A stretch of 64,000 bases of DNA from Flavimaricola sp. Its GTDB lineage: Bacteria > Pseudomonadota > Alphaproteobacteria > Rhodobacterales > Rhodobacteraceae. Both the position numbers and the translations under genes were made by a program. Below are positions 37,507 to 47,205 of the stretch, piece by piece (positions within the stretch are counted from its first letter, which is position 1; every line of letters starts with the position of its first letter). The notes under the pieces were generated by a model. That model was not told the DNA's origin, ran no database searches, and saw only the letters and a program-made list of their open reading frames with translations. The stretch covers positions 1-64,000 of the forward strand of contig JAHDDU010000008.1 in the NCBI GenBank assembly GCA_020629175.1. Direction: 5' to 3'.

Positions 37507-38100
37507 TCAAAGATTGTCTACGTAGCAAGCGGTTAGTTCCGCCACTTCGTCTGGTGTTGCACTGGTCCGAAAGAACTCGGCAAAGCCGATCCCCGGCAAC
37601 ATCAGGTACGTAAACGTCGTGTGGTCGACGAGGTAAAACTCATCCCCGCCCCGCTGCGCCCGGTAAAACACCCGGTATTGCTGAGCGGCTGCCGCAATCT
37701 GCTCTTCCGAGCCGGTCAGCCCGATCATCCGCGGATGAAAGACATCTGCGTAGTCGCGCACCACATCGACCGTATCTCGCGCCGGATCGATGGTGATGAA
37801 CAGCGCGTCAATTTCATGCCCGTGATCCTCTTCCAGAAAATCCATGGCCAGCGCGTTGCGTGCACTGTCCAGAGGGCAGGCATCCGGGCAGAAGGTATAG
37901 CCAAAATAGACCAGCGTGGGCCGCGTGATCATATCAGCATCTGTCACAGTGTTGCCCGTCTCATCGATCAACTCAAACGGCCCGCCAATCGCCGCTTCAC
38001 CAACCGTGCTCGCCCGACACTCTGCAAACTGATCCTGTGCCAGTGCGGGAGCGGACACCGCCGCCAAAGCCCCGGCCATTGCCAATCCTAATCTAATCAT
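37507..38100 (-). CDS. SCO1/SenC family copper protein
   Basis: This exported thioredoxin-fold copper chaperone of cytochrome oxidase assembly has a signal peptide to about residue 21 (APALAQ), a copper motif GYTFCPDACPLD (CxxxC) and a distal His in VDHTTFTY. Relatives (SenC, PrrC) in Rhodobacter link oxidase activity to photosynthesis gene control. It is translationally coupled to the upstream PCuAC gene (ATGA overlap). Confidence 0.9.
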   Translation of the reverse strand: MIRLGLAMAGALAAVSAPALAQDQFAECRASTVGEAAIGGPFELIDETGNTVTDADMITRPTLVYFGYTFCPDACPLDSARNALAMDFLEEDHGHEIDALFITIDPARDTVDVVRDYADVFHPRMIGLTGSEEQIAAAAQQYRVFYRAQRGGDEFYLVDHTTFTYLMLPGIGFAEFFRTSATPDEVAELTACYVDNL

Positions 38101-38615
38101 TCGCCATCCTCCTCATGCATATCATCGTGGTCGATATCGGACATGTCAGTCCCGGTTTGACCCGTTGTCGCAGGTACCCGGGCTTCGACCTTGAAGACAA
38201 TGTCAAGCTCCCCGGCCGTTTCAAAAACCAACGTCGCAGGGATATCTTCGTTTACCTCAAACGGATCGCCGCCAAGGCCCATAAACATTATGTGAAAGCT
38301 GCCAGGCTCTAGGGAGACGGTCGCACCCGCCGGTATAACAAGTCCCCCCATGACATGCTGCATGCGCGTGATATCGCCGTCAGTGATGGTTTCATGAAGC
38401 ATGACGCGCGGAAAGTCAGCGCGAACGTCGATGAGTGTTTCGTCGACATCCCCTGTATTTGTGATGCTTAGATAGCCCACTCCAGTTTGCGCCGTCACGG
38501 GCGTCTCATATGAGATGGGGTCGCTAATGACGAGATCGCCAACGGCAAATTCGTCAGCGAACGCCATAAATGGGAGCGCGGCAAAGCCTGCCGCTGCAAA
38601 GAGGTCTGTTTTCAT
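38097..38615 (-). CDS. PCuAC periplasmic copper chaperone
   Basis: This 172-residue exported protein of the DUF461/PCuAC family has a Met/His copper site spread over MLHET, MQHVMGG and FHIMFMGL. The signal peptide ends near MAFAD. A His/Asp-rich tail (DIDHDDMHEEDGE) may also bind metal. PCuAC proteins pass Cu(I) to Sco and the CuA or CuB site of oxidases. It precedes the Sco gene with a four-base overlap. Confidence 0.9.
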   Translation of the reverse strand: MKTDLFAAAGFAALPFMAFADEFAVGDLVISDPISYETPVTAQTGVGYLSITNTGDVDETLIDVRADFPRVMLHETITDGDITRMQHVMGGLVIPAGATVSLEPGSFHIMFMGLGGDPFEVNEDIPATLVFETAGELDIVFKVEARVPATTGQTGTDMSDIDHDDMHEEDGE

Positions 38616-38674
38616 TGTCTTAGTCCTGAGAGGTGCGCCGTTGTGAGGCGCCGTTTCGTATCAGATGGCTACAC

Positions 38675-39040
38675 TCAGACCAAAGGCGGCGGCGCGCGTG
38701 CCTCCGCGACGCCAAATCCAGCAGTCCCGGCAATGCCAGAACGAAACCCGCCAAAGTCTGCTGTTCTGTACGCGATCAGCGATTGCAGGGTCCATGTCCC
38801 ACCCGGAAGATCAGCACCAGAGACGAGGCGGCATGCTTCACAATCGGCGGCAAGCTCATGTGGTCTGTGTGACGCATCCAGACAAAGATCTTCAACGCTG
38901 CCGCCAGCCTCAAAGAACGCCAAAAGCTGATCGTCGACAGGCGGTGCAGCACGGTGCGCAAACCCGGCAGTCACCAACCCGATCGCAACGAGTGCAATCA
39001 GTGCGCCGCGCGCCAATATATGGGAGGCAATGGCTCTCAT
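38675..39040 (-). CDS. Small exported protein of unknown function with a CxxC motif
   Basis: This 121-residue protein has an N-terminal hydrophobic segment (RGALIALVAIGLVTAG) that could be a signal or anchor, then DCEACRL, a possible metal or redox site. It resembles small DUF2946-like proteins near copper genes, but I cannot confirm the family. It lies 59 bases upstream of the PCuAC gene on the same strand and is probably cotranscribed. A TTG in the same frame at 39076 would lengthen it; I prefer ATG 39040. Confidence 0.65.
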   Translation of the reverse strand: MRAIASHILARGALIALVAIGLVTAGFAHRAAPPVDDQLLAFFEAGGSVEDLCLDASHRPHELAADCEACRLVSGADLPGGTWTLQSLIAYRTADFGGFRSGIAGTAGFGVAEARAPPPLV

Positions 39041-39091
39041 GCGCCAAGGGTTATGCGAAGCGTGAGACCGAGCCAAGCGACAATACTGTGA

Positions 39092-41002
39092 TCAGCGCTG
39101 CGGCACTTTCGCCTTCAAATCTGCGCCTGACGCTTGCAACGCCATGGCCGCAATATCAACAGCGGTCATCCCCGCGTCTGCATACATGGCATCCGGCGCG
39201 GCCTGATCGATGAAACGGTCAGGCAAAGTCATCGTCCGAAGTTGGCAGCTTGTGCCCAACAGCCCCTCGTTCGCCAGATAGTGCAACACCATGGCACCAA
39301 ATCCACCTTGCGACCCCTGCTCAACCGTCACCACCACTTTGTGATGGCGTACGAGCTGGCGGAGGAGTGCATGATCCAGAGGCTTGGCAAATCGCGCATC
39401 CGCGATGGTCACAGACTGGCCCGCGTCTTCCAACCGCTGCGCGGCTTTGCGGCACTCACCAAGATGCGCACCAAAGGACAGGAGGGCAATATCTGTGCCT
39501 TCCTGAACGATCCGGCCCTTGCCGATCTCGATTACCTCTCCGCGCTCGGGCATTTCGAGTCCCTCGCCTTCGCCACGAGGGTAGCGGAACGCGATGGGGC
39601 CTTCGTTATACTCGGCGGCCGTGCGCACCATATGCATCAACTCCACCTCATCGCTGGCGGCCATCACGACCATGTTGGGAAGGGCCGCGAGATAGCCAAT
39701 GTCGAATGCGCCCGCATGCGTTGCACCGTCCGCACCCACAAGACCCGCCCGATCAATGGCAAATCGAACGGGCAGATTCTGGAGGGCCACGTCATGTACG
39801 ATCTGATCATAGCCGCGCTGCAGGAAGGTGGAATAAATCGCGCAAAACGGCTTTAGACCGCTGGCCGCCATCCCGGCGGCGAAGGTCACGCCATGTTGTT
39901 CGGCGATGCCAACATCGAACACGCGGGATGGAAATTGTCGGGCCATAATATCAACGCCTGTCCCCGATGGCATTGCAGCCGTCACAGCGACAACGCTGGG
40001 GTCACGTGTGGCCTCTTCGGTCAAGGCCTTGCCAAAGACGGAGGTATAGCTTGGCGCATTGGGTTTCGATTTTTTCTGCGCGCCTGTCGCCACGTCAAAC
40101 TTTGCGACGCCGTGATACTTGTCTGCGCTTGTCTCAGCCGGAGCATACCCCTTGCCCTTGACCGTGCAGCAATGAATAAGCACCGGCCCCGTTGCACGGG
40201 TCCGCGCCGCGCGCAGGACAGGCAGCAGCTGTGACATGTCGTGGCCGTCGATCGGGCCGACGTAAGAGAATCCGAGCTGTTCGAACAAAGTCCCCTGCCC
40301 GCCCACAGCACCAGTCACCAATTGACGAGCCCGTTTGGCATGATCGCGGAGCGGACCTGGTAACGCGGCCTCGAACCCCTCTGCCATTTTGTGCATCTGG
40401 CCTACTGGTCCGGCGTAGAGCCCGGATAGATATTTTGACATCGCGCCAACGGGTGGGGCGATCGACATTTCATTGTCGTTGAGGATCACAAATAGCCTGC
40501 GCCCCTCTGCGCCGACGTTGTTCATCGCCTCATACGCCATGCCTGCACTGATAGAGCCATCACCGATCACAGCGATGGCATCGCCGGTTTCCATCCCCAT
40601 ATCGCGGCCCGTTGCAAACCCCAAAGCTGCCGAAATGGATGTGCTGGAATGCGCGGCACCAAACGGATCAAACTCACTCTCGGATCGCTTGGTAAAGCCA
40701 GAAATCCCCCCCTCCTGACGCAGAGTATGCATCCGATCACGGCGCCCGGTCAGAACCTTGTGCGGGTAGCACTGGTGGCCAACGTCCCAAATGATTTTGT
40801 CACGCGGGGTGTCAAACACCGCATGCAGGGCAACTGTTAGTTCCACAACGCCAAGAGATGATCCCAAATGCCCGCCCGTTGTCGCAACGGCCTCAACGAC
40901 TTCGGCCCGAACTTCATCTGCCAAACAGGCAAGCGAACGGTCTGACATACGGCGAAGATCGGCGGTGGATGTGAGCGCATCTAGCGTTGGTCTGGCAGTC
41001 AT
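39092..41002 (-). CDS. dxs: 1-deoxy-D-xylulose-5-phosphate synthase
   Basis: This TPP enzyme makes DXP from pyruvate and glyceraldehyde 3-phosphate, the entry step of the MEP isoprenoid pathway. The TPP-binding [16 protein letters not shown] motif, the KGKGYAPAE block and a transketolase C-domain are clear. The length of 636 residues from ATG 41002 is typical, and AGG lies six bases upstream. It follows pufX, as dxs does in Rhodobacter, so precursor supply is linked to the puf operon. Confidence 0.96.
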
Positions 41003-41075
41003 TAGGCACCTGCGACTTTCTGTGTTAGAAAGAAAAGGCGCCATGCGAGGGTTGCGCCCCACATGACGCCAGTCT

Positions 41076-41194
41076 CCTGTAGCCAACAGGAAGGGAACTG
41101 GAGCACCGCGGGGAACGCGGGTGCCCCTAGTATCGGACCATTCCGGGAGGAGAGGCCCGATAGCTGAGAGGGTGGGCCGCAGCCCGGTCCACCC
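41076..41194 (-). promoter_or_regulatory. Hairpins in the pufX-dxs intergenic region
   Basis: Three inverted repeats lie in the 201-base gap: GGGTGGGCC/GGTCCACCC at 41170-41194, ten bases after pufX; GCACCGCG/CGCGGGTGC at 41103-41124; and CCTGT/ACAGG at 41076-41090. The first lacks a T run, so it may protect the 3' end of the puf message rather than act as a simple terminator. Confidence 0.55.
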
Positions 41195-41203
41195 CCAATC
41201 TCA

Positions 41204-41449
41204 TCAGGCGACTATTGCGCCTTCTTCGACCAGTTCGAGCGATGACCAAGGCGTTGGGTCTTGCGCCTCTTGGCTCTCAGCGGGCAGCAGCCCACCGACG
41301 AATGTCATCGCCCACATGGCAAACCAGATCACCAGACAGAAGACGGCGGCATATCCTGCACCCTTGAGCATGAGGATCGTCACCTCACCCACAAGCGCCA
41401 TTCTCTGAGACTCGTTGCGATCCAGCAGACTGAAGTTTTCGTCACTCAT
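41204..41449 (-). CDS. pufX: Reaction-centre-LH1 core protein PufX
   Basis: This small single-helix polypeptide opens the LH1 ring for quinone exchange and, in Rhodobacter, organises the core complex. It has 81 residues against 82 in R. sphaeroides. A central helix (about 27-56) begins with LMLKGAGYAA, close to MMKGAGWAG in Rhodobacter. GLLPAESQEAQDP resembles the RMLPIQENQAP segment after the helix. The start is ATG 41449 with GGAG upstream; the frame reaches a TTG at 41464. It takes the place where pufC lies in many roseobacters. Confidence 0.85.
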   Translation of the reverse strand: MSDENFSLLDRNESQRMALVGEVTILMLKGAGYAAVFCLVIWFAMWAMTFVGGLLPAESQEAQDPTPWSSLELVEEGAIVA

Positions 41450-41464
41450 GTTTCTCGTCTCCAA

Positions 41465-42394
41465 TCAGCGGTCCAGCGGGGCGAAACCGTGGTCTTGCGC
41501 CCAGACGTACCAGTTATCAACAACCGTGCCGGAGAGCAGGATACCGATGCCGCCTGTCAGCGTTGTCAGTACTGCAAACCACCACGCCCAGCGGTGAATG
41601 CCTTCCATCGTGGCATTGAACCCCATGGTCCAGCGCCAGAAGAGGGCCGCACGCTCAGACGCTGTGCCACGGTCCACGATCTGTTCAATCTCGCGCTCCC
41701 CGCCGAAACGGGACACTGCGAGAATTGTCGCACCGTGCATCGCAAACAGCAGAGCTGAACCATAAAGGAACACAATGCTAAGCGCGTGGAACGGGTTGTA
41801 GAACAGGTTGCCGTGCCGGATGGAAAAGAGGTTCGTCCAGTCAAGGTGGCTAAAGATGCCGTAAGGCACAGCTTCGGACCAGCTTCCCATGAGGACGGGC
41901 CGGATCAGGCCGAGCACGAGGAACAACCAGATGGCAGAGGCAAAGGCCCAGGCCACATGTTTGCCCATCCCCAGCTCTTCAGCCCGCAAATATGTGCGGA
42001 TCCACCAGCTAATGACGCTAACCAGCAGGAAGAAGCTGGCTATAAGCCACCAGCCACCTTCGTTCAGCGGCGCAAAGCCAAGGCCATACTCAGGACCGGG
42101 CGGCTCGAGCGAGAAGTAGAAGAGATCGCGGGCAAACACGCCTGGGCTATAGCCCGCCTGCGCCCAGTAGCTCATGCCAACGATAAAGAACCAGGCAAAG
42201 CCGGTGGCCAGCGACACCACCCCGAAGGTGCCCAAGTGAATGGGCCCCAACTGAGCGTTGCCGAAGAGACCGGCAAGCTGGGAAAAGCCCGCCTTCTTGG
42301 TCCGTTCGCGTGCAATGTTGTTCTCATTGTCCATGCCCATTTCGGGCGGACCGACAACCTGCACTTGGGTGAAAATGTTCTGATACTCAGCCAT
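41465..42394 (-). CDS. pufM: Photosynthetic reaction centre M subunit
   Basis: One of the two membrane subunits holding the bacteriochlorophyll dimer, bacteriopheophytins, QA and iron. It has 309 residues, five helices, and conserved [26 protein letters not shown] and FNPFHALSI-type His ligand regions ([23 protein letters not shown]). The start overlaps the pufL end by eight bases. An N-terminal extension [15 protein letters not shown] is typical for M. Confidence 0.97.
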
Positions 42395-43235
42395 TTACGC
42401 CTCCCTCAAGATTGATCCACCATGGCAGATCGACATACCAGTACCACCAGACGATCCACTCCTCGAACCAGATGGTTCCAGAGATGACGATGCAGACAGC
42501 ACTCCAGAAACCAGCGTTCAACGCCAGGAATAGGCCCAGACGGTGAATGCCCAGTGGCCCGATGGAATAGCCGATTAGATCGCGGAAATAGGTGTCTTCG
42601 TGATCAGGTGATTTGACCTCTGTCCCTTTCGCAGGGTTCACCGCTGACAGCACAAGCGAGCCATGCAGCGCGAGCGCCAAACAGGTGGTGAAGAAGAACG
42701 TGATCGCCACCATATGTGCAGGGTTGTAATGGAAGTTCCCGTAGGCATAGCCCACGTTGTTCACCCAATCGAGGTGTGAGAATATCCCATATGGGAATCC
42801 GTGCGCCCAAGCACCCATCAACATCGGCCGGATCACCACCAATGTCACATAGGCCAGGATCGCGACGCTGAACGCGAACGGCACATGGTACCCCATCCCC
42901 AGTTTGCGGCAGATCTCAACCTCACGCAGCGCCCAACTCACAAAGGCTCCGATCGCGCAGATGGTAATAATTTGCCAAAGCCCCCCTTCCAGCAAAGGCG
43001 CAGCCCCAAGGCCCACCTCCAGCGCTGGCGGATCAATGGAAATCAGCCAGGGGTTCCATGTGGGGCCTTGGCTGGCCCCATAAAAAATCAAAATTGTCCC
43101 GAGGGCGGCGAAAAAGAACGTCGTGACCCCGAAGAAGCCCACATAAAAAGGCCCCACCCAGAAGTCGAACAGATCGCCTCCGACGAGTGTCCCGCCACGG
43201 ACACGGTATTTTCTTTCGAAGCTGAGCTGAGCCAT
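42387..43235 (-). CDS. pufL: Photosynthetic reaction centre L subunit
   Basis: This five-helix subunit binds the special pair with PufM and carries the QB site. The length is 282 residues. Conserved segments include [43 protein letters not shown] and FGYIFSHLDW-type [11 protein letters not shown], then [21 protein letters not shown] with His ligands. It follows a 123-base intercistronic region with a strong hairpin after pufA. Confidence 0.97.
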
Positions 43236-43305
43236 CTTCCGTCTCCAGTTTTGGACGATACCCCACCCTGGCAGGGCAGCGTCACTATCGTCATGTCTTT
43301 GGTGT

Positions 43306-43334
43306 GCTGCGGGCAGTGCACGCCCGCCCGCAGC
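43306..43334 (-). promoter_or_regulatory. pufA-pufL intercistronic stem-loop
   Basis: The perfect 9-bp arms GCTGCGGGC and GCCCGCAGC are separated by 11 bases, 25 bases after the pufA stop, with no T run. It corresponds to the puf stem-loop that, in Rhodobacter, stabilises the pufBA segment and so gives more LH1 than reaction centre. Confidence 0.75.
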
Positions 43335-43358
43335 GCTATTGAGAGCTCATCGAGCCGC

Positions 43359-43523
43359 TTATTCTGCCATCTCAGACGCGAAAGCGCGGTCGAACCAGTT
43401 GGTCTCTGGGTTGCTGAGCAGGACGAGGTGAATCATCGCAGCCAGCAAGAACAGGAACACACCCTGCGCCACGAACACGCGGCGAGGATCAAAGATGAGC
43501 CAGATTTTATAAAACTGTGCCAT
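43359..43523 (-). CDS. pufA: LH1 alpha polypeptide PufA
   Basis: This 54-residue single-helix antenna peptide binds bacteriochlorophyll through His32 (AAMIHLVLL). The N-terminus [21 protein letters not shown] and C-terminal [10 protein letters not shown] are typical of LH1 alpha chains. The ribosome site AGAGGAGC lies 8-9 bases upstream. It follows pufB by 15 bases. Confidence 0.96.
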
Positions 43524-43538
43524 ATTGATATGCTCCTC

Positions 43539-43697
43539 TTAGCCCCAGGCGAACCAAGGCAGTTTGATGTACGTCAGTACATGCGCGACCACGGCCACAA
43601 TCGTGAAGATCGTGAACCCGCTCATGTAGACCGAGTGCAGCTCCTGCGCTTGCTCGTCTGTCAGACCTGTGAACGACAGGTCATTTCTATCAGCCAT
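43539..43697 (-). CDS. pufB: LH1 beta polypeptide PufB
   Basis: This 52-residue antenna peptide has the characteristic [17 protein letters not shown]-terminal block and bacteriochlorophyll ligand His39 (VVAHVLTYI), ending LPWFAWG. ATG 43697 follows GGAGGAAAAATA, a strong ribosome site; the open frame to 43727 has no homology. Confidence 0.96.
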
Positions 43698-43860
43698 TAT
43701 TTTTCCTCCGAAAAATTGCACTGACACCGCACGTTCCCCGCGGCCGGGTCGTGACGGGGCTCATCCCCGCCTTTATTCGCCTGCCCCTGTAGAAGTGAGA
43801 GGCGAAGTCGTAGGCATGGCGCGGTGGGTGAACACCAGATGCGCCAAACCAATTCCTAGG

Positions 43861-44082
43861 TCACGCCGCAAAAATATGTGGCGTTATGATCCGGGCTTGT
43901 GTCCATGCGCGGGCAAAAGGGCCCTTTTCTGGCAGAGCGAACTGCCGCGCGGCGCTCAGGCCCCAGGTCAACATGGCCAGCGGAAGTGCGGCCAGAAAGA
44001 TGATCGTGAAATAGGCGTAGTATTCCCGCTTTGGCGGGGCAGCACGGCTGCGCGTCACTGGCGCATTCGTCATATCCGTCAT
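43861..44082 (-). CDS. pufQ: PufQ, bacteriochlorophyll-related puf operon protein
   Basis: This 73-residue protein has one membrane helix (YFTIIFLAALPLAMLTWGLS, about 23-42) and the family C-terminus GPFARAWTQARIITPHIF. In Rhodobacter PufQ is needed for normal bacteriochlorophyll formation, possibly as a carrier of pathway intermediates. The start overlaps the bchZ stop (TGATG). The 163 bases between pufQ and pufB hold a small CGGGG/CCCCG hairpin at 43755-43769 and no convincing gene. Confidence 0.9.
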   Translation of the reverse strand: MTDMTNAPVTRSRAAPPKREYYAYFTIIFLAALPLAMLTWGLSAARQFALPEKGPFARAWTQARIITPHIFAA

Positions 44083-45542
44083 CAGGTGTTTCCTCCCTTG
44101 GTCGTCTCGAGCGTCTGAACTGTCTCCAGAACAACGCGGTCTTCGCCCGCGGCCAATGCGGCCTTCTCGGCGGCATCGCGCAGAGTTTTGGCCGCAGAAA
44201 TGCGGGTCAGAATTGGATGGCTGGCAACAATATCATCCAGCTTTTGCTGCGCATCCGCGTCCCATGGGAAATCGCGGCGCAGCGGTGTCGGTGTCGCTTC
44301 GGCGGCATCCATCTCACTGCCCAAGGGCAGGATATGGAACAGCGCGTCAAACAGGCCGTTGCAGACCTCTTGAATGACATAGGTTGCCCCCGCGTAGCCC
44401 ATAAACGGCGTGCCCGTGGCCCGCCGAATGGCTGCACCAGGGAAACTGGCCGGGATGAACGATGGGCTTGGCCCATGCCCACCACGCATCTCCGCCATGT
44501 ACATCTTTTCATTGATCGAACCAAAGACGATGAGCGGGCGTTTGGTGTGCATCAGATCGCGCACGTCTTCGTTGTCGGTCTTTTTGCCACGCAAACGGCT
44601 CACTGAAAACGCGCAGGGGAACCCCAGATCGCCCTCAAGGTACTTTCGAATCCCGCGCGTGTAGGTTTCGTTCGCGACGACAGCGAATTCACATGTGGCA
44701 TAGAAATCCTGCGTGACAGATCGCCACAAATCCCAAACCGGCTTGATCGTCGAATGCTTTTCCCGCTCGATGAACGGCTCAGGATCAAGCCCGAGCAGTT
44801 CACCCAACTTGCGGAGGAATTTTGTCGTTGAATCGATGCCAAAGGGCGCTTGCAGATATGGCTTGCCCAATACTTCACACAGGCCCCGGCCAAACTCGCG
44901 GTACATGCAGATATTCACATCCGCATTCACCAGATTGCGCATCTCAGCCACATGCGCGCCCAGAGGCATCACCATGTTGACGTCCGCGCCGATCCCCTCG
45001 ACCAACCGCCGGATTTCGGCCAGGTCAGACGGCATGTTGAACGTGCCATACATCGGCCCAAGGATGTTAACCCGCGGAGCCGCACCCTCTTCCCGCTTCT
45101 TCTCGGGCGGCATCCGGCCTTTGGTCATGCCAAATTCGGTGAAGATCCAGGTCATCGCGCGATCCGCGCTTTCCCATTGATCCTCGTCAATGGTGCGCGG
45201 CAAGAACCGCTGAATATTCGTGCCCTGCGGCGTGACCCCCCCACCGATCATCTCAGCAATGGATCCAGTCACCACCACAGCGGGCAAAGCGGGATCAAGC
45301 ACGCCCCAAGCGCGCTTCATCGCCTCTTCTGTGCCCTCACCCATCTCGCTCTCGCCCAGACCGGTAACCACAATGGGAAGTTCGTGCGGTGGCAGTCCGT
45401 CGGTGTAGTGCAGAACGCTAGTCACAGGCAGGTTTTCACACCCGACAGGCCCGTCAATCACGCATTGCAGGCCCTTTACCGCGCAAAACGCATAAACGGC
45501 ACCCCAGTAGCCACCGGCACGGTCGTGATCCATCACCAGCAT
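44082..45542 (-). CDS. bchZ: Chlorophyllide a reductase subunit BchZ
   Basis: This NifK-like subunit of the BchXYZ reductase reduces the B ring of chlorophyllide a to the bacteriochlorin. Conserved parts are [45 protein letters not shown] and [12 protein letters not shown]. It has 486 residues. ATG 45542 follows a 91-base gap with a GC-rich repeat, the only gap in bchY-bchZ. pufQ follows directly. Confidence 0.96.
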
Positions 45543-45574
45543 CCGCGCGCACCCCGCAGCTTCTTTGGGCCGTC

Positions 45575-45612
45575 ACCCCGGGGGAGCGCAGCGGGGGCAG
45601 AGCCCCCCGTAA
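45575..45612. repeat. GC-rich repeat-like element between bchY and bchZ (copy D)
   Basis: CCCCGGGGGAGCGCAGCGGG and GGGGGC...GCCCCCC can form a hairpin like the tails of copies A, C and F, but the conserved CTTCTTCTGGC box is missing. It fills most of the bchY-bchZ gap. Confidence 0.5.
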
Positions 45613-45633
45613 CATGTGCCGACCAGCGCGCCA

Positions 45634-47205
45634 TCAAATCATCTCCGCCGCTTTGGCCGCACGCGCCATTTTATCGAGCTTCTTTTGGTGCTGTGCTCGG
45701 AAATCCGGGCGAAGGTTTGGAGCCCCCTCCCAAACGCCTGCCGTATCGCCATGACCGACGCCTTCAAAAAACGCCTTCATAGACGCCATGCGGTCACGGC
45801 CCGCAATCGCCGCGTTCACGACCTGACCCAGTGAGCCCGCACCTGCGGGCCCCATCAATGGCCGCGCCGAAATCAGGTTGGTGAAGTAGAGCGCTGGTAT
45901 CCCCAGCTCTTTGGCCTTTTGCACCACAGGTGTGGTGCCAATCGCAAGATCAGGTTTGACCCCTTCCATTGCCGCCAAATCATCTTCAAGCGAGGCGCGA
46001 TATTTTACCGTCACGCCCTTGGCCGCAAGCCATTCAGCATCCGCTGCAGACCACGGCGTTTTTGGGCAAGCCGTGCCGACATAGGGCACGTTTGCGCCAC
46101 TTTCGATCAGGAGGCGTGCGACCAAAAGCTCGGACCCTTCGTACCCCGAAAGGGTGATCGTCCCATTGATCGGTGCCGCTGCCAAAGCCTGCTGAATTGC
46201 TGGGAGGAAGGCGTTCTGAGACGCCGCGACCTGATCTTTGTTCAGACCAAAGGCGTCACCGATGCCAGCCAGCCAATTTGCCGTGCCGTCATGCCCCACC
46301 GGGGCCGAGCCCACAATCGGACGGCCCGCAGCCTCAAAGGCACGCACGCTGGCCGTATAGAACGGATGGATGGCGGCAACCGCACCGCAATCAAGTGCCG
46401 CATAAAGCTCACGCCATTCGCGCGTCGGCACAACCGGACCGGCCGCCAAACCCATTGGGGCCAGCATCGCACCGATCATCATCGGATCCGCGGGGAACAT
46501 TTCACCCAGGATCGACACCGTTGGTCGGTCAGACTTTCCGCCTTGAGGGGCGGCAACCGGCCCTGCCTTGATCTCTTCGCGCGCATATTCGAGCATCGCG
46601 CCCGCCAACACATCCTTGGCTTCGGCGTGGGTCGGAATGCCAAAACCGGGCACGTCAATCCCCACGATGCGCACGCCGTTGATCTCGCTAGGCAAGAGTC
46701 GCAGCGGCACACCAGACGCGGTTGGCACACATAGATTGGTCACGACGATCGCGTCATACTTCTCAGGATCGGCCAAGGCGTGGACGCTCTCGCGTATGTC
46801 CTCAAACAACTTGCCAGTCACCAAAGTTTCAGAATTGAACGGCACATAGCCCACAGACCGCCGCGCGCCGTAGAAATGGCTGACGAAGGTGAGGCCGTAG
46901 ACGCAGCAGGCAGAGCCCGACAGGACCGTCGCTGTCCGCTTCATCCGCAGACCAACCCGCAGCGAACCAAAGGCAGGACACATGGATTGCGGCTGATCAT
47001 GCGGGCCCATCGGGTAATCAGCGGCATAGCGATCCAAAAGCTCGGACTGACCGGCGGTACGCGCCGCTTTGTCCATCTCACCCTTTGAGGCGCAGCCGAG
47101 GCCGTCGACCGCCGGGCTCGCGGGCTGATCCGAAGGCGTCACCTGCACGGCACCGTTGGCGTCATAGCCAACGTCAAAGCCTTCTCTGCCGCCATCATGC
47201 GCCAT
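45634..47205 (-). CDS. bchY: Chlorophyllide a reductase subunit BchY
   Basis: This NifD-like subunit pairs with BchZ. Cluster-ligand cysteines lie in QSMCPAFGSLRVG, GSACCVYGLTFVSHFYGARRSVGY and NLCVPTASGVPLRL. The protein has 523 residues from ATG 47205, with ribosome site GGGAGGG. The longer frame to 47235 overlaps a small ORF between bchX and bchY. The C-terminal region ends in a Lys/Ala helix. Confidence 0.96.
   Translation of the reverse strand: MAHDGGREGFDVGYDANGAVQVTPSDQPASPAVDGLGCASKGEMDKAARTAGQSELLDRYAADYPMGPHDQPQSMCPAFGSLRVGLRMKRTATVLSGSACCVYGLTFVSHFYGARRSVGYVPFNSETLVTGKLFEDIRESVHALADPEKYDAIVVTNLCVPTASGVPLRLLPSEINGVRIVGIDVPGFGIPTHAEAKDVLAGAMLEYAREEIKAGPVAAPQGGKSDRPTVSILGEMFPADPMMIGAMLAPMGLAAGPVVPTREWRELYAALDCGAVAAIHPFYTASVRAFEAAGRPIVGSAPVGHDGTANWLAGIGDAFGLNKDQVAASQNAFLPAIQQALAAAPINGTITLSGYEGSELLVARLLIESGANVPYVGTACPKTPWSAADAEWLAAKGVTVKYRASLEDDLAAMEGVKPDLAIGTTPVVQKAKELGIPALYFTNLISARPLMGPAGAGSLGQVVNAAIAGRDRMASMKAFFEGVGHGDTAGVWEGAPNLRPDFRAQHQKKLDKMARAAKAAEMI

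Follow-up and report, generated by a model that had tools for sequence, protein, structure and literature searches.

The small open reading frame that follows pufM in this Flavimaricola sp. raises the question of whether the puf operon ends here in pufX rather than pufC, and of what this would mean for the core complex. A sequence-only reading of the window (i.e., the whole stretch of 64,000 nucleotides analysed, from contig JAHDDU010000008.1) had drawn attention to an 81-residue frame with an LMLKGAG and an LLP segment at 41204–41449, and this frame is present as described, on the minus strand. Profile, gene order, the lack of a PufC match over cut-off and the pufM phylogeny agree on pufX in place of pufC, and we are nearly certain that the gene is a pufX orthologue belonging to a puf operon of the PufX type found in Rhodobacteraceae (pufQBALMX followed by dxs).

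Read along the minus strand, the genes follow in the order pufQ, pufB, pufA, pufL, pufM, pufX, and dxs (Table 1), so that the frame in question sits between pufM and dxs, the place of pufC in relatives. It opens with ATG at 41449, 15 bases after the pufM stop, and runs through 81 codons and a stop to 41204, while the list of open reading frames begins it at an upstream TTG (41464) and thereby arrives at 86 amino acids; GGAG at 41462–41459 stands nine bases 5' of the ATG. The same-genus genome G032 carries pufBALMX with the order of the window from bchZ to pufX, and its PufM is 96% and its PufX 67% identical (74% over the 73 residues aligned by tblastn); dxs was not found behind this pufX within the sequence stretch examined. 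The only LHC-family genes found in the window's own assembly are pufA and pufB, and LH2 genes are thus not seen in an assembly rated 93.6% complete.

Table 1. Features of the puf locus in the window, with the evidence for each.
Feature	Position	Strand	Evidence
dxs, downstream neighbour of pufX	39092..41005	minus	PF13292, PF02779, PF02780 over cut-offs
Terminator-like hairpin and T-rich run 3' of the core	41030..41070	minus	covarying stem in the alignment of 57 relatives; position from sequence
Conserved core CTTCCTGTTGGCTACAGG of the puf 3' untranslated region	41076..41093	minus	pattern matches, conservation across loci
pufX, 81 aa, one transmembrane helix	41204..41449	minus	PF11511 67.8 bits, E 6.5e-19; AlphaFold long helix 8-54
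Shine-Dalgarno-like GGAG before pufX	41459..41462	minus	direct sequence reading
pufM (reaction centre M)	41465..42394	minus	PF00124 344.5 bits
pufL (reaction centre L)	42387..43235	minus	PF00124 323.4 bits
pufA (LH1 alpha)	43359..43523	minus	PF00556 57 bits
pufB (LH1 beta)	43539..43727	minus	PF00556 40 bits; NCBIfam NF040862 73.1 bits, cut-off 61
pufQ	43861..44082	minus	PF05398 97.5 bits

Sequence similarity had been judged low, with length and position carrying much of the call. The judgement is right for pairwise comparison: identity to the R. sphaeroides-type PufX (locus L003) is about 25%, and phmmer, run with the single sequence against the PDB, returned chains labelled PufX at E = 0.019 to 1.2, with CD20 chains ranking among them, and at best E = 0.011 for 8ygd_X, labelled DXP synthase by its depositors although the matched stretch is PufX-like. 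Such values, 0.011 or worse for PufX chains, are what one would expect to find cited in favour of an unrelated small membrane protein that happens to follow pufM. The profile search that had been suggested as a check tells another story, since a Pfam scan of the 81-residue protein retrieved a single family, PF11511 (RhodobacterPufX), with 67.8 bits (cut-off, 25 bits; E 6.5e-19) and a match over residues 13–66, i.e., model positions 10–63 of 67; in the own genome (3,137,858 bases, 85 contigs) the pufX locus is the only match. The resemblance thus exceeds chance in the profile and also in global alignment with the L003 PufX, where the score of 40 compares with -34 on average (sd 11) and 5 at most among 2000 shuffles. 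Because the PF11511 match is strong, the call is firmer than had been thought. The NCBIfam scan gave no PufX family match, and only oxaloacetate decarboxylase gamma at 19.6 bits versus a cut-off of 93. The AlphaFold model consists of a long helix (residues 8–54; pLDDT 96 across residues 31–50) and a short one (57–60) with low-confidence ends, and Foldseek found no match to it in the PDB, as expected for a lone helix. The length of 81 residues compares with a median of 79 (range 54–122) at the other 109 PufX loci, and the characteristic motifs fall at residues 26–32 (LMLKGAG) and 52–56 (GGLLP). In an alignment of 87 of 102 distinct PufX sequences (two short PufX are among the 15 not aligned), G30 and P56 are invariant and M1, M27, A31, A34, L55, S59, and P65 nearly so, and the window protein has both of the former and all seven of the latter. 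These positions are common to the family, and relatives in the same place after pufM form a graded series of 67, 51, 50, and 49% identity; together with the profile match, they leave the unrelated protein, as far as sequence evidence reaches, with a negligible probability.

It might also be asked whether the frame is what remains of a decayed pufC, namely its N-terminal anchor, and not a separate PufX. Derivation of PufX from the N-terminus of PufC is a published idea (Huck 2003, as cited in PMC9640540), and two results go in this direction: residues 2–52 of the PufC of genome G015 (L144:1274-2398) match PF11511 at E 0.0015, with 18.6 bits and hence under the cut-off of 25, and hhalign, given 102 PufX and the first 85 residues of 36 PufC, returned P 0.0026 over 16 columns. 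Nevertheless, the probability of that hhalign match is only 11.6% (reversed control, 1.2%), and the other six PufC scanned were without a PF11511 match. Recent decay would moreover leave pufC debris, and there is no PF02276 match on the window contig; in the own genome as a whole no PufC (PF02276) match exceeds the cut-off, two matches under it (E 0.074 and 0.077) both lying on other contigs, and the gene after pufM has 81 codons versus about 370 amino acids for the multi-haem PufC. In a pufM tree of 136 different rows, from which L146 and L119 had been dropped as long branches, one branch (SH-aLRT 98) parts 102 PufX rows from 34 PufC rows; the window falls on the PufX side, with a Pseudooctadecabacter MAG and Planktomarina as the nearest rows outside its genus. 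Its position on that side of one well-supported branch speaks therefore against a recent local decay, and we consider a pufC remnant very unlikely. A single replacement of pufC by pufX is also what Brinkmann et al. 2018 describe (PMC6052148); with L146 and L119 included (138 rows), our tree requires two changes instead of one. The remnant idea bears on how PufX as a whole first arose and not on the gene of the window, and the apparent sequence link between PufX and the PufC N-terminus is compatible with the published hypothesis but no proof of it.

Taken as an orthologous pufX, the gene is ordinary, common in Rhodobacteraceae, and already described. Among the 44 photosynthetic Rhodobacteraceae treated by Brinkmann et al. 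2018, pufC is missing from 22, all of which have pufX in the same place (PMC6052148), and roseobacters are reported to be of PufX-type or PufC-type, some within one genus (PMC6739100). In the light of these two sources, the statement of the sequence-only reading that PufX is known mainly from Rhodobacter and a few relatives is outdated, roseobacters being included among the pufX carriers, and its premise that most roseobacters have pufC at this place is unsafe as background. The PufX-type roseobacter clusters presented in PMC6052148 have undergone the same replacement of pufC; the window belongs to this PufX group, and nothing distinguishes it in kind from the clusters as outlined there. It adds one more genome to the well-described half of Rhodobacteraceae phototrophs and matters little as a pufX gene.

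Our own counts give a similar picture of the family. PF11511 was found in 95 of 394 Rhodobacteraceae genomes at E <=0.001, with 91 over the cut-off (counted by that cut-off, most without individual inspection), and PF02276 in 72. Among the four under the cut-off (G015, G385, G151, and G207), the match in G015 is the N-terminus of a PufC, and the frames of G385 and G151 look by eye like other membrane proteins. Five genomes appear on both lists: G015 through the PufC N-terminus that PF11511 matches, G385 through its apparent other membrane protein, and G058, G194, and G296, which are considered below. A search with the window pufM, from whose 593 relatives 80 named loci were retained, contributed to a set of 150 pufM loci, where the gene next to pufM is PufX in 110 and PufC in 39, the sequence of L078 ending too early; some loci are present twice and the set overlaps with the survey of 394 genomes, so that it is not an independent sample. 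In a search of 385 genomes of the class, directed outside the family, nine had PF11511 at E <=0.01 and three over the cut-off; two of these three are family members, and the third, G428, has another family code and carries pufL, pufM, PufX, and dxs on one stretch. At L158 (G567), which has a PF11511 match at E <=0.01, the window proteins found nothing. Two short PufX exceed the PF11511 cut-off: L104:3902-4093, which has 63 residues from its first ATG and ends just past VLP, and L105:3938-4102 of Rhodobacter sp. SW2, which has 54 residues and no LLP. L104 is also the PufX row closest to the PufC side of the 136-row tree.

What the gene would do can be proposed by analogy. The PufX of Rhodobacter sphaeroides, R. 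capsulatus, R. veldkampii, and R. blasticus likewise follow pufM and have about 80 residues, one transmembrane helix, and KGAG and LP segments. In the solved relatives, PufX is described at one edge of the LH1 ring, in contact with RC-L and the first LH1 pair, where it prevents ring closure and permits quinone exchange (PMC9640540, PMC11463270, PMC9007983, PMC9932092); upon deletion of pufX in R. sphaeroides, the LH1 ring closes and photoheterotrophic growth stops (PMC9007983). The window PufX would similarly span the membrane once with a cytoplasmic N-terminus and bind RC-L together with the first alpha-beta pair of LH1; this binding would keep the LH1 ring from closing, so that quinone and quinol could be exchanged through the gap. 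With no bound cytochrome subunit, the reaction centre would presumably be re-reduced by c-type cytochromes that are soluble or anchored in the membrane. A PufX of this kind thus leads one to expect an open LH1 ring, and the species is suggested to form an open LH1-RC without bound cytochrome. The gene had also been held to bear on whether the core complexes are open-ring or dimeric, and the first part of this stands, but PufX alone does not decide between monomer and dimer: the core complexes of R. capsulatus and R. veldkampii, both with PufX, are reported to be monomeric (PMC9932092, PMC11463270). R. blasticus is described as dimerising without PufY (PMC11463270). Unlike R. sphaeroides, whose PufX shares only about 25% identity with that of the window and which has PufY, the own genome yielded no PufY in a search whose positive control, G051, gave a match of 100% identity. 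Across 80 genomes (a set without G194, G207, G224, G296, G339, G342, G343, G346, G376, G380, G381, and G386), 33 gave some PufY match at E <=1, and only G051 (100%) and G091 fell below 1e-3; the G091 match (E 6.8e-6) lies inside a 211-residue frame, and PufY was counted in G051 alone.

Three observations made along with the pufX gene, namely a conserved RNA element, a genome with both puf types, and the separation of pufLMX from the LH1 genes, are more novel than the pufX call, and the occurrence of the element at both operon types and the two-type genome could matter more than the gene itself. In genome G058 (four contigs, 99% complete, 1% contamination; loci L145 and L146), pufBALMX lies on a contig of 1.26 Mb, and another of 104 kb carries a divergent pufL-pufM-pufC whose L is 66% and M 54% identical to those of the window; the only two LHC genes of G058 are both on the 1.26-Mb contig, none accompanying pufL-pufM-pufC. 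The contigs agree in composition (GC 69–74% in the compared stretches, tetranucleotide r 0.97–0.99), which speaks against contamination. A review states that pufX and pufC do not occur together in any phototroph, and G058 goes against this statement. Two further genomes pair a PufC-type operon with a second set of genes on another contig, pufLMX in G194 (L147/L148) and a cut pufM-pufX in G296 (L149/L150). Correlation of composition in G194 is r 0.94 for the 8-kb puf stretches and r 0.99 for two 20-kb stretches; in G296 it is r 0.73 for the compared stretches, and G296 may therefore be a mixed bin.

At 82 loci the sequence reaches 700 bases or more ahead of pufL, and seven of them (L081, L091, L092, L097, L103, L146, and L147) had no pufA or pufB hits there. 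The genomes of L081, L092, and L103 have bchZ-pufQ-pufB-pufA-dxs at another place, and from this separate arrangement we infer that the reaction-centre genes and pufX left the operon while the LH1 genes stayed. The frame that precedes pufL in L092 and L103 has at its end a sequence that looks PuhC-like. No LHC genes were found in the genomes of L091 and L097, assemblies of 1.4 and 1.5 Mb for which there is no completeness figure.

The RNA element lies in the gap of 198 bases between pufX and dxs, which contains GTTCCCTTCCTGTTGGCTACAGG followed by a terminator-like hairpin. The core pattern occurs once in the own genome at <=2 mismatches, in the puf 3' region, and once in the window at <=3 mismatches versus 0.20 expected; the reversed control pattern likewise has one match in the genome. 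A 23-nt form (<=5 mismatches, <=900 bases downstream) was found behind 75 of 110 PufX and 19 of 39 PufC genes. Where dxs is adjacent, the 18-nt core (<=3 mismatches, <=700 bases) was present at 84 of 97 PufX and 23 of 34 PufC loci, compared with two of 11 PufX (one being the same-genus G032) and none of five PufC loci without adjacent dxs, and one of two short loci. Of the 102 distinct sequences, 57 (47 of the 81 behind pufX and 10 of the 21 behind pufC) were picked by hand for an alignment that leaves out Planktomarina- and Sulfitobacter-like variants; in this chosen alignment a small CCUG/CAGG hairpin is present in all 57 rows, and the terminator stem covaries, with 12 of 16 predicted pairs changed on both sides in at least one sequence and pairing kept. 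Since rows were chosen at <=3 mismatches, the invariance of the core is partly a matter of construction, by which the covariation of the terminator is unaffected. Rfam gave no match over 38500–46000 at E up to 1.

The PcrX sRNA of R. sphaeroides, reportedly the work of Eisenhardt et al. in 2018, provides a natural comparison. It is placed behind pufX, where the puf transcript ends (PMC8625941, PMC9438474), and the element shares this position. In the R. sphaeroides-like locus L003, the element lies 92 bases after pufX, which suggests that it is the PcrX region, whose conservation would then extend beyond Rhodobacter; judged from position, it is perhaps PcrX itself. Unlike PcrX, which is placed after pufX, the element also occurs after pufC. 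It is tempting to go further and to propose, with a chance that we would put somewhat short of even, a family-wide PcrX-like sRNA of the puf 3' end (core, CCUG/CAGG hairpin, and covarying terminator) that would predate the switch from pufC to pufX and would act on puf mRNA whichever gene ends the operon. L117 is among the other loci that carry the element. Beyond dxs, three small genes on the minus strand (37507–39076) separate it from the oppositely oriented idi, and two of them look like copper-chaperone genes (SCO1-like and PCuAC-like).
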